Below are positions 219 to 9,702 of a stretch of 23,528 nucleotides of DNA, piece after piece. The DNA is from a virus. The notes beneath the pieces were generated by a model. That model saw nothing but the letters and a program-made list of their open reading frames with translations. It was not told the DNA's origin and ran no database searches. A program made the translations under genes and the position numbers. The stretch lies in IMG/VR virus record IMGVR_UViG_3300025093_000125, positions 1 to 23,528 of that record; one strand, written 5' to 3'. Positions within the stretch are counted from its first letter, which is position 1; every line of letters starts with the position of its first letter.

Positions 219-454
219 AGCCGGGAATCAAAACGAGTGAGATGATTATCACGTTAATCGGCATGATTGGCGGTGTGGTGCTTGCCAGCATTGAAGGCAA
301 CCAATGGACTCAAATCATCGGCGGCATTCTTGCTGCGGTATGCGGTGGCAGCTACACAATGGGCCGCAGTATGGTCAAAGGCAAAGAAGCCATCGGGGCC
401 GCCCAGGTTCAAGCGGCGCGTGAGCTCGCAAAAAAGCAGGGCCCCGAGAGCTAA
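215..454 (+). CDS. Holin-like two-TM membrane protein (zero-frame product)
   Basis: A 79-residue protein with two hydrophobic segments, about residues 9-25 (MIITLIGMIGGVVLASI) and 31-50 (WTQIIGGILAAVCGGSY), followed by a basic, Ala-rich cytoplasmic-type tail. Size, topology and position directly before an M15 endolysin fit a phage holin, which times lysis by opening the inner membrane; this is inferred from context because holins share little sequence. A short tail follows a slippery A AAA AAG at 430-436 before the TAA at 452-454. A -1 shift there would bypass the stop and extend the protein into the frame ending at 666, giving about 150 residues in place of 79. The 79- and 150-residue forms could act as a holin/antagonist pair. 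Confidence 0.75.
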   Translation: MKPGIKTSEMIITLIGMIGGVVLASIEGNQWTQIIGGILAAVCGGSYTMGRSMVKGKEAIGAAQVQAARELAKKQGPES

Positions 455-476
455 TCAATGCGGCTCTCGCTGGGGC
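430..476 (+). promoter_or_regulatory. Candidate -1 programmed frameshift signal in holin-like gene
   Basis: The heptamer A AAA AAG (430-436) sits in the correct phase of the holin-like frame (codons GCA AAA AAG), the same heptamer used by E. coli dnaX. Four bases later a stem starts: 441-451 (GCCCCGAGAGC) pairs fully with 463-468 plus 472-476, with a 3-nt bulge (469-471) and an 11-nt loop that contains the zero-frame TAA. Slippery site, short spacer, strong stem and an open -1 frame are all visible. Efficiency and biological use are inferred. Confidence 0.75.
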
Positions 477-666
477 AAATCAGGCTTCCAAAATGGCGGC
501 GGGTTCGGGACTCTTTACGCTTGGCGCTGGCATTATCAATGATGTTGGCAAGCTTGATGCTGCTCTTAACACTCGAATCAATGAAAGCGTGTCTCTATTT
601 GCCAGCGGCAGCGTGGACACGTCTAGGAATTGGCAAGCGATGACCGGGCTGAAGGTGCAATGGTGA
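436..666 (+). CDS. -1 frame extension of holin-like protein
   Basis: This frame has no convincing start of its own: the first ATG is at 493 with only a distant GGGG upstream, yet protein-like sequence begins well before it (AGPRELINAALAGANQASKM). Read after a -1 slip at 436 it adds 76 residues to the first 74 of the holin-like protein. The extension is Ala/Gly-rich with a weakly hydrophobic stretch (GSGLFTLGAGIINDVGKL) and ends LKVQW. Its TGA (664-666) overlaps the ATG of the endolysin gene at 666 as TGATG, so translating this extension would couple to endolysin synthesis. Alternatives are a separate 57-residue protein from 493 or a broken gene; the intact slippery site and stem favour frameshifting. 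Confidence 0.6.
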   Translation, partial: AGPRELINAALAGANQASKMAAGSGLFTLGAGIINDVGKLDAALNTRINESVSLFASGSVDTSRNWQAMTGLKVQW

Positions 667-6528: not shown

Positions 6529-8730
6529 ATGATGGCGGGATTTACGGCGGCGGACTGGTCCAGTTTGGCCGAAATATTCAATGGGCGCTTACTGCGCGGC
6601 GAGCGCGGAACAAATGCAGTAAAAACAGAAGGCTGGAATTTATTCAGCACCGGCAACACGGTAACAGCTGAAGAGCTGGAAGCGATTGACGGCGAGGCTC
6701 CGGCGTTTAACCTGGGTATAAGAACAGGGCGCGGCCTGGTTGTGGTGGATATCGATAAGCCAGAGAAAGAGCCTTTAATCAGGGGAATCGTTGGCCATAG
6801 CAACTTCGAAGTACAGACGCCGCGCGGGCGGCATCTCTACTTCAGGACCGACCCAGGGGCGAAGATTCCATCTCGTATCATGGGCGGTGTGGATATCTTC
6901 TGCAGTCCAAGCGGTGACAGCTCCAAGGGCTCTTATGTGGTGGCGCCGGGGAGCGTCAGGACCGCTGACAGAGATTTGAAGCTTAAAGGCTACGGCGTTG
7001 AACGGGCTGTTTATGATTTAGTTGTCTTCGATGGCATCGATGATTTCGAGGATTTAGCTTACCGCTCCCCTGATGTGATTTTTGAACTCATGCGGGCAAT
7101 CGGGACGAGTGGGCCGGTTGGGACGGTCTTCCCGCCGGGAGGGCAACCTGGGAATATCTTTGACGTATCGGCGGTTAAGATACCGCACGACGGGCGGCCA
7201 GTGGGTGAGAACCAAGGGCGCAACAATGCGGCGGCCTCACTCGTTGGGCAGTTCATCCACGAGGGTGATGATTTCAATCGGGCTTTCAAGAAAGTTTCGG
7301 ACTGGAATGAAAGAAACCCGGTCCCGCTGGAGGCCAGGGAGCTGCACAAAACAGCGGTTTCAGTATTCAAGAGCCACCAGCGAAACCATCCAGAAGATAA
7401 GCCCATAGAGCCTACCAGCGAGCCCATACGCATCAAAAAGCCCAAGACTGTTATCAGTACACTACCGGCGAAGCTTCACACCATACCGGGCATCCTGGGC
7501 GATTTTGTCAGATGGTATATGGAGACGGCACCGGCGCCACATGTGGAGATGGCGGTACAGTCTGCGCTGGCTCTGGGCTCGGTCGTCCTTGGCCGCAAGT
7601 ACGTGACAACGGAATCAAACTTTACAAGCCTTTATTTCCTAACCGTGGCCAAGAGTGGCACCGGCAAAGAATACGGCAAAAAGGCCATTGAGAAAATTCT
7701 TGACGCGGCGGGTCTCGATGACCTGATAGGCGGCAGCGGTTACACGTCACCGGGCGCGGTATATTCAGAGCTTCGGGATCGTCCAACGCACATCACCGTG
7801 ATTGACGAGTTCGGGAAGTATCTTCAGGCGTGCAGCGCGTCGGGGAATAGCCAGCTCCAAGAAGCGGTGACGACTCTTGTCGAGGCTTTTGGGCGGCTCG
7901 ATGGTACGCTTAGACCGCGCGCATACTCTTCGATGGGTCTGACAGAAAAGCAGAGGGGCGACGTTGAGCGGCTCAAGGTGACGCGGCCAGCTATCACGCT
8001 GTACTCGATGACCACGCCGAAGCAGTTCTACAGCGCCATAGGCGAGGCCGATATCGAAGCGGGGATGCTTGGCCGGTTTCTTGTGGTCAACAGTGACGCG
8101 GAGTGTGGAGCTCGTAAGCGTGGACAAGCTAAAGCGGCGCCACCGGCTGGCGTTGTTCGGTGGGCTCAATCCATGCGGGATGCGGGCGGTGGTAATTTGG
8201 CCGGGGTTGAAGTTCACGACGTGGCGCCGAAGACCGTTGAGCTTGAGTTCACCCCGGCGGCCTATGAAGTGCTGGATGCTTTCGAGGCCGAGACCGTGAA
8301 GAGGCGCCGCAGGCTTTCCAATAGCGGCATGGATGTTTTGCTGGCTCGCTCTGTAGAAATCGCAATGCGCTTGGCTGCCATTGTGGCTTGTTCGAAGCAA
8401 TCGCCGCGGATTGACCGCGAGGCCATGGAGTGGGCGGTGGTTTATTCTGGCCATGCATTTAATGGGCTTGTTGAAGCCGTTGGGACCCAGATGACCGGGA
8501 GCGAGTTTGGCGCAAGGCGTCAGGCGATGCTCGAAGCTATTACGGCAGCAGGTGAGCGGGGCATGACTGACCGGGACTTGAAAAAGCGGTTTAGAAACTT
8601 GAAGCCGAAAGAGCACGCCGAGGCCGTGAGGGCCCTGGTTGATGCTGGCGAAATTGCACTGGTAGAAATTGAGCATCGGGGGGCGGGCAGAAAGCGCCGC
8701 GCGTTCGTTGCAATTGAAGAAGAAATATAG
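6529..8730 (+). CDS. Primase-polymerase fused to P-loop ATPase/helicase-like domain
   Basis: A 733-residue replication protein. The N-terminal bifunctional primase/polymerase domain shows VVVDID (71-76), TPRGRHLYF (97-105) and VDIFCSPSG...GSYVVAPGS (121-142), the metal-binding and nucleotide-binding motifs of archaeo-eukaryotic-type prim-pols. A PriCT-like helical segment follows (GRNNAAASL, about 230-280). The C-terminal half is a DUF3987-like ATPase with Walker A VAKSGTGKE (about 373-381) and Walker B ITVIDE (422-427), then a winged-helix-like end (RGMTDRDLKKRFRNLKPKEH). The Walker A Ser/Thr is replaced by Glu, which is unusual. The protein probably primes and unwinds phage DNA. ATG 6529 or 6532 both fit the AGAGGGGG site. 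Confidence 0.88.
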   Translation: MMAGFTAADWSSLAEIFNGRLLRGERGTNAVKTEGWNLFSTGNTVTAEELEAIDGEAPAFNLGIRTGRGLVVVDIDKPEKEPLIRGIVGHSNFEVQTPRGRHLYFRTDPGAKIPSRIMGGVDIFCSPSGDSSKGSYVVAPGSVRTADRDLKLKGYGVERAVYDLVVFDGIDDFEDLAYRSPDVIFELMRAIGTSGPVGTVFPPGGQPGNIFDVSAVKIPHDGRPVGENQGRNNAAASLVGQFIHEGDDFNRAFKKVSDWNERNPVPLEARELHKTAVSVFKSHQRNHPEDKPIEPTSEPIRIKKPKTVISTLPAKLHTIPGILGDFVRWYMETAPAPHVEMAVQSALALGSVVLGRKYVTTESNFTSLYFLTVAKSGTGKEYGKKAIEKILDAAGLDDLIGGSGYTSPGAVYSELRDRPTHITVIDEFGKYLQACSASGNSQLQEAVTTLVEAFGRLDGTLRPRAYSSMGLTEKQRGDVERLKVTRPAITLYSMTTPKQFYSAIGEADIEAGMLGRFLVVNSDAECGARKRGQAKAAPPAGVVRWAQSMRDAGGGNLAGVEVHDVAPKTVELEFTPAAYEVLDAFEAETVKRRRRLSNSGMDVLLARSVEIAMRLAAIVACSKQSPRIDREAMEWAVVYSGHAFNGLVEAVGTQMTGSEFGARRQAMLEAITAAGERGMTDRDLKKRFRNLKPKEHAEAVRALVDAGEIALVEIEHRGAGRKRRAFVAIEEEI

Positions 8731-8739
8731 GGGTTTCTG

Positions 8740-9702
8740 ATGAGTGATTTAATAGCTGAAACAAACAAGAAGATTAAAGACAGCGGGCGGCCAATTATTG
8801 CGTCGGTGTCCGGCGGTAAAGATTCAATTGCCATGGCGCTATGGCTGAAAGAAAACGGGTTTGAAGAAACAAATCCTGTTTATTACGTTTACGCCGATAC
8901 AGGATGGGAACACCCTGTGCTCTACGAATATATAGAGAAAACGGTCAAGCCTTTGCTGGGCGATAAGTTCCATAGAGTCGTCAGCGAAAAATACCCAAAC
9001 GGGATGATGGACATGGTGGCAGGAGAAGGGGCTTTTCCCAGCCGCCGCATGCGATTTTGTACACGCATCCTAAAGACAGATCCCATCAAGGCGTTTATCA
9101 AATCAGTGGGGAACGACCCGCTGCCAGTCAATGCGATAGGCATAAGGGCCGCCGAGAGCGTGGCGCGCAGCAAGATGGATCTCTGGGAACCGGGGAGCAT
9201 ATTCGGGGCAAATGTCTGCGACACCTGGCGCCCCCTGATCTCCTGGGTTGTTCAAGACGTGGTGGATATTCACAAACGCCACGACCTGCGCCCATGCCCT
9301 CTATACCTGAAAGACAAGTACCCCGCCGAGCGCGTCGGCTGCTGGCCTTGTATCATGAGCAAAAAAAGCGAGATCAGGGCCATGGTAGAAACTGACCCAG
9401 GGCGTCTGGTTCAAATTAGGCAGCTAGAGGAAAAAGTCTCTGAAATAGCTGAAGAAAGATACAAGAAAAAAGGCGAAACATTTGAAAGCCTTGGATTTAA
9501 AAAGCCCGCATTCTTCCAGGCAAAGACCGGCGGAACGGGAGAATGTTGGCCAATCGATAAAGTGGCCAAATGGGCAAAAACAGAAAGAGGCGGTCACCAA
9601 TACGGCCTTGAATTGTTTTTACCGTCTGACCCTTCAGAACGTGGGTGCCAGATGTGGGGGCTCTGCGACGTACCCGACGAGAATGGGGAGTTTTCAGAGT
9701 GA
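8740..9702 (+). CDS. PP-loop ATPase, PAPS reductase-like (IbrA/DndC-type relative)
   Basis: A 320-residue protein with the PP-loop SGGKDS (24-29), the adenylating motif of the PAPS reductase/ATP sulfurylase/tRNA-thiolation group. GIRAAES (133-139) is the second conserved element. Cysteines at 106 (RFCTRIL), 200 and 203 (VGCWPCIM), with 185 nearby, could bind an iron-sulphur cluster or a zinc ion, as in DndC-type proteins. True PAPS reductases have a different C-terminal Cys motif, so sulphate assimilation is unlikely. IbrA-type phage and island proteins occur with ParB-domain IbrB partners, and a ParB-domain gene lies 1 kb downstream. Substrate unknown; nucleotide or DNA modification is plausible. 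The start follows AGGGGTTTCTG. Confidence 0.85.
   Translation: MSDLIAETNKKIKDSGRPIIASVSGGKDSIAMALWLKENGFEETNPVYYVYADTGWEHPVLYEYIEKTVKPLLGDKFHRVVSEKYPNGMMDMVAGEGAFPSRRMRFCTRILKTDPIKAFIKSVGNDPLPVNAIGIRAAESVARSKMDLWEPGSIFGANVCDTWRPLISWVVQDVVDIHKRHDLRPCPLYLKDKYPAERVGCWPCIMSKKSEIRAMVETDPGRLVQIRQLEEKVSEIAEERYKKKGETFESLGFKKPAFFQAKTGGTGECWPIDKVAKWAKTERGGHQYGLELFLPSDPSERGCQMWGLCDVPDENGEFSE

Follow-up and report, generated by a model that had tools for sequence, protein, structure and literature searches.

We analyzed a linear IMG/VR record of 23.5 kb, and by "the window" we mean this whole stretch of DNA. It has Pfam matches to a Mu-type portal, a large terminase subunit, and a tail tube protein. Its left end carries, all on the plus strand, the end of a gene for a coiled-coil protein (positions 3-218), a gene for a 79-residue protein with two hydrophobic helices (215-454), and an M15 peptidase endolysin (PF08291, E = 2.3e-15; phrog_894 endolysin, E = 3e-29) that could start at the ATG at 660 or at the ATG at 666 and that ends at 1085. 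Between the last codons of the two-helix gene and the endolysin, the same strand also holds a slippery heptamer, a predicted stem-loop, an extension in the -1 frame, and a second open reading frame (ORF) in the zero frame that is hidden beneath that extension. The coiled-coil gene, of which the window includes the C-terminal part, has a stop codon that overlaps the start of the two-helix gene (ATGA). It is conserved in position in relatives, where it comes in two sequence types and where the copies have a hydrophobic N-terminus and a coiled coil. Elsewhere in the window, three small ORFs that include hydrophobic or charged segments and match no family lie on the minus strand (1351-2379), in the direction opposite to the lysis cassette, and a phage-borne protein with a PAPS reductase domain (8740-9702; PF01507, E = 2.6e-19) adjoins a Prim-Pol/PriCT/DUF3987 protein (6529-8730).

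We refer to the 79-residue zero-frame product as holin-like. As a small two-helix protein adjoining an endolysin, it meets the size and position criterion for a holin (one to three transmembrane helices). No holin family matched it above the cut-off, so its identity rests on its size, its two hydrophobic helices, and its gene neighborhood rather than on a family match. A distant relative, L049, is the only one to match a holin family (phrog_1299, E = 0.013). By the positive-inside rule, both termini of the holin-like protein are predicted to be cytoplasmic. The next gene is an M15 endolysin in the window and in L002-L007, L044, L048, L082, and L083, and the start of the next gene is in most loci no more than 4 nt from the stop codon of the -1 frame. 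A scan for ORFs with a lipobox found none in the window; in the 13 relatives that were scanned, it found a single ORF, which looks like a chance match, so we have no convincing candidate for a spanin. Separately, L049 encodes a two-helix protein that is related but lacks a frameshift site (L049:2947-3201), and this is followed by an apparent small lipoprotein gene, which is a possible spanin.

Protein-guided scans of IMG/VR identified relatives of this locus on more than 30 distinct contigs, and we analyzed 29 loci, namely the window and 28 IMG/VR contigs. All of the relatives that carry the module are metagenomic contigs from uncultured sources, and they are not independent samples. We found no homologue in cultured phages, nor in a scan of GTDB genomes with the holin profile. 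Two other candidates, L024 and L025, were rejected as chance matches.

The first-pass annotation of this DNA proposed a programmed -1 frameshift in the holin-like gene, with products of 79 and about 150 residues and with the longer one ending at the start of the endolysin, and comparison with the relatives strongly supports this. The heptamer A_AAA_AAG at 430-436 is of the dnaX type and is in phase with the 79-residue ORF (zero-frame codons GCA AAA AAG), as had been claimed. A shift at this site would join 74 residues to the 76 codons of the -1 frame extension (436-666), for a product of 150 residues that ends at the TGA at 664-666. This stop codon overlaps the ATG at 666-668, so the TGATG overlap with the endolysin start (664-668) is as originally described. 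It was also correct that the -1 frame reads on before reaching any ATG, as the first one is 21 codons in. This frame had been described as open on both sides of the heptamer: downstream it continues to the TGA, and upstream it is open for just 2 codons.

A heptamer lies in phase, shortly before the stop codon of the two-helix gene, in all 29 of the analyzed loci, which answers the proposed check for its conservation in relatives. There are two types: 20 loci, including the window, have A_AAA_AAG, while in the other nine, which encode another type of holin, that position (codons 71-73) is occupied by G_GGA_AAG. The three codons that touch the heptamer are invariant in all 19 of the A_AAA_AAG loci that were tested, as compared to none of the 49 other codon columns of the holin gene, for which the mean synonymous identity is 0.40. 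Such invariance is confined to the heptamer. Furthermore, the residue before the heptamer varies between alanine and valine in the A_AAA_AAG clade while the base that belongs to the heptamer stays fixed, and in the G_GGA_AAG clade the heptamer bases are constant in nine of nine loci even though the preceding residue is V, L, or M. This satisfies the test that conservation of the slippery site should exceed that of the encoded residues. Both G_GGA_AAG and A_AAA_AAG have been described as highly shift-prone in E. coli (PMC5009743). It is hard to explain why a slippery site would be exchanged for another sequence that is still slippery, except by selection for frameshifting. The comparison shows that selection maintains a canonical -1 frameshift signal shortly ahead of the holin-like gene's stop codon; the fusion product has not been detected.

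The evidence for stimulatory elements is more uneven. A stem-loop is predicted at 441-476, beginning 4 nt past the heptamer, in which 441-452 would pair with 462-468 and 472-476, with a 3-nt bulge at 469-471 and with the zero-frame stop codon (452-454) at the loop. So the stem that was noticed originally is confirmed as a prediction, including its spacing and its bulge, but it has 12 pairs rather than 11 and its energy stands out only modestly (z = -1.66, with 13 of 200 shuffled sequences as good). At most one of nine relatives lacks the outer C-G pairs, and L007 has a compensatory change. Stems are predicted in group A and also in part of group B, where L009 has z = -3.0 (these are two of the groups of extensions described below). 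On the other hand, conservation of the stem does not extend to the G_GGA_AAG clade, for which we found no conserved downstream stem. In that clade, a GAGG located about 13 nt ahead of the heptamer could be an internal Shine-Dalgarno stimulator.

The extension itself encodes a conserved C-terminal domain, as the comparison of sequences shows, and the -1 frame is under protein-type constraint past the end of the hidden ORF. Across the loci, the -1 domains fall into four groups with very different sequences, and nearly all of them end with G-x-x-x-x-W/F. For the window's domain, AlphaFold (AF2, 30 rows) predicted one helix and four antiparallel strands, with a pLDDT of 91.2. The top five fold matches in the PDB are all membrane anchors of trimeric autotransporters (Hia, AtaA, and YadA), with probabilities of 0.99-1.00 and E values of 0.003-0.12. 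Among the best viral fold matches, the ones with names are YadA-like anchors and adhesins of phages. We also compared the profile for the window's group to a profile of phage YadA anchors (from phiEco32 and nine others) with hhalign: 66 columns aligned, with a probability of 91% and E = 1e-6, as compared to a probability of 0.1% for the holin profile as a control. Pfam gave no YadA_anchor match for the extension, and the parts of the fusion had no informative match in Pfam, PHROGs, or NCBIfam. Given the predicted structure and the profile match, we regard the assignment of the -1 domain to the outer-membrane anchors of the YadA or trimeric-autotransporter type as firm for the window's group, but neither trimerization nor insertion into a membrane has been shown. 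For the other groups this assignment is inferred: group B by itself had no significant profile match to YadA anchors, and its structure was predicted with low confidence. The comparison supports the first-pass annotation in that the long product would be a frameshift-made fusion, and we would amend it in that the product appears to end in a YadA-type anchor instead of being merely a longer holin. A scan with the anchor profile had a sole match, in the Acidobacteria metagenome-assembled genome L095, to an ORF that resembles an outer-membrane beta-barrel protein. We rejected it as a homologue of the module, as the ORF is unrelated and there is neither a holin nor a heptamer.

The original description of a gene with two products also needs to be extended to include a third. 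Beneath the -1 frame, at 458-643, the zero frame contains an ORF of 61 amino acids with a basic N-terminus and one predicted transmembrane helix, whose ATG lies 3 nt past the zero-frame stop codon. In all 29 loci there is an ATG or GTG at exactly this distance, and this hidden start always uses a T at the wobble position of the -1 frame. The hidden ORF has 36-64 codons, and its product combines a single hydrophobic helix with an N-terminus that is strongly basic. (In L016 and L017, the frame that opens at the +3 start is only three codons long, and its role passes to a GTG 21 nt past the zero-frame stop codon.) The window has a weak Shine-Dalgarno-like GAGAG at 446-450, 7 nt upstream of the hidden start codon, and many relatives have AGGA, GGAG, or GAG a few bases upstream of theirs, with AGGA or GGAG at the same place as in the window. 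When the -1 frame was recoded synonymously, the observed start, length, and hydrophobicity appeared in at most 0.3% of trials for each locus, except for L016 and L017. Four-fold degenerate sites of the -1 frame are identical at 76% and 73% inside the hidden ORF versus 39% and 33% beyond its end (p = 0.004 and 6e-7 in column tests of this difference), while the agreement at such sites in the holin gene is about 44%. Inside the hidden ORF, changes at first codon positions of the -1 frame are no less frequent, so the constraint is specific to a frame and does not reflect a quiet region. In other words, the hidden ORF constrains sites that are silent in the -1 frame, which satisfies our test for overlapping genes. 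We conclude from these patterns of substitution that the DNA past the zero-frame stop codon also encodes a small, basic, putative membrane protein with a single helix, although the product has not been detected.

Could these patterns arise without ribosomal frameshifting? The -1 frame might be a separate gene with its own internal or reinitiation start, next to an incidental heptamer. Some loci do offer possible starts: L022 and L042 have a TAATG in the anchor frame and may also make the anchor as a separate protein, in group A the frame has an ATG 21 codons in, and in L080, L082, and L083 it has one after 7-9 codons. But no start position is common to the groups, many group B loci have only TTG or GTG, and a separate gene would leave both the invariance of the heptamer and its replacement by another slippery heptamer unexplained, so we consider this improbable. 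A fusion could also be made by slippage of the RNA polymerase on the run of A's, and four further loci (L020-L022 and L042) do have runs of 8-9 A's. Nevertheless, most loci have just six, the run stays at six with the phase of X_XXY_YYZ kept, and the nine loci with GGGAAAG have no run that is long enough, which makes transcriptional slippage very hard to sustain. Finally, homopolymers are prone to sequencing errors, and one might suspect a mistake in sequencing or assembly, or else a gene in decay. We can practically dismiss this, as comparison of the relatives has already refuted it: the same arrangement is present in over 30 independent contigs with divergent sequences and two different heptamers, and the -1 frame is under protein-type constraint beyond the hidden ORF.

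So we favor programmed frameshifting within a lysis gene with three products, that is, a frameshift signal, a conserved anchor domain, and a hidden ORF for a membrane protein, with mutually exclusive fates for the ribosome, and we put the probability of this reading at roughly 80%. The decoding by frameshift and the dual coding are well supported by comparison, albeit without any experiment. From the layout, we infer that a ribosome at the heptamer would have two exclusive fates. One that keeps to the zero frame would make the short holin, stop at 452-454, and possibly start again at 458 on the hidden membrane protein. One that shifts would make the 150-residue fusion of holin and anchor and stop at 664-666, on top of the endolysin's start codon. 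Because these fates exclude each other, the rate of shifting would set the ratio of the short holin and the membrane protein to the fusion and any coupled translation of the endolysin.

It is less clear what the fusion would do. Our inference, in which we have less confidence, is that it ties the inner membrane to the outer membrane, much as a spanin does, once the holin has opened a hole. This is attractive because the fold of the anchor points to the outer membrane and there is no convincing lipoprotein spanin nearby. A difficulty is that the predicted cytoplasmic C-terminus of the holin conflicts with an outer-membrane anchor unless that end is moved or released. Alternatively, the long form could act as an antiholin or regulate the short holin from the cytoplasm, rather than serve as a tether that spans the membranes. 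The predicted topology, with both termini inside, would fit with this, and dual holin products in other systems regulate the timing of lysis. However, a cytoplasmic protein does not need a YadA-type anchor with a C-terminal signal like those of outer-membrane proteins, and while regulation is a real possibility, we would not bet on it. The anchor may reach the periplasm only after the holin's hole opens, or the long form may regulate the short one. The strongest form of the tether reading, in which a frameshifted holin that ends in a YadA-type barrel is a new membrane-bridging lysis protein and the slippery site sets the order and the ratio of all of the lysis functions, is tentative, and we consider it more likely to be wrong than right.

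Most known cases of programmed frameshifting in phages come from the genes for tail-assembly chaperones and from a small number of capsid genes. The G/GT tail chaperone of phage lambda and dnaX of E. coli use the same heptamers (G_GGA_AAG and A_AAA_AAG) and the same -1 logic, with a common N-terminus and two C-termini. In contrast, the gene that we studied is holin-like and linked to lysis, and its membrane-anchor extension is overlapped by a further ORF. The lysis gene L of MS2 likewise encodes a membrane protein that is small and basic and has one helix, and ribosomes arrive at its start after terminating and reinitiating at a gene that overlaps it (PMC5009743), but our phage has double-stranded DNA, and the competing fate would be a programmed frameshift into a conserved domain. 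Like the spanins (Rz/Rz1, or the unimolecular spanin gp11 of T1; PMC6139136), the module sits in a lysis cassette, involves a pair of genes in overlapping frames, and might bridge the inner and outer membranes. Unlike them, it has no lipoprotein signal that we could find, it would be attached to the outer membrane by a YadA-type barrel, and it would be made by frameshifting. The anchor shares its helix, four strands, and C-terminal aromatic residue with YadA-type anchors and with YadA-like proteins of phages, such as the agglutinating adhesin of phiEco32 and g139 of phiR1-RT; the known phage proteins carry a signal peptide, whereas here a two-helix holin-like N-terminus would be joined by a frameshift. 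(In the Yersinia phage phiR1-RT, which is T4-like, g139 is annotated as hypothetical, and its 122 amino acids comprise a signal peptide and a YadA-type anchor; L096:523-891.) Lastly, the order of a coiled-coil membrane protein, a holin, and an endolysin is reminiscent of the XhlA/holin/endolysin cassettes, but with E = 0.37 for the match to XhlA, this is a resemblance and not membership.

In the open-access literature that we could search, we did not find this arrangement of a frameshift and a hidden gene for lysis, nor any case of frameshifting in a holin or a lysis cassette, nor anything relevant on YadA and lysis. If it is correct, then a frameshift signal, a region that codes in two frames, and two coupled starts further downstream would all lie on one short stretch of DNA, and what the ribosome does at seven bases could determine the proportions of the lysis proteins. 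If the fusion does link the membranes, it would also be an answer to how phages without a recognizable spanin open the outer membrane.

The cassette appears to be mosaic: in L045, L036, L082, L083, and others, the types of coiled-coil protein, holin, and anchor are variously combined, and a slippery heptamer is always at the junction. L022 (1009-1205) and L042 have an anchor frame with its own start in a TAATG overlap, beside a run of nine A's, and they lack the hidden ORF. This layout is possibly an alternative or an ancestral arrangement.
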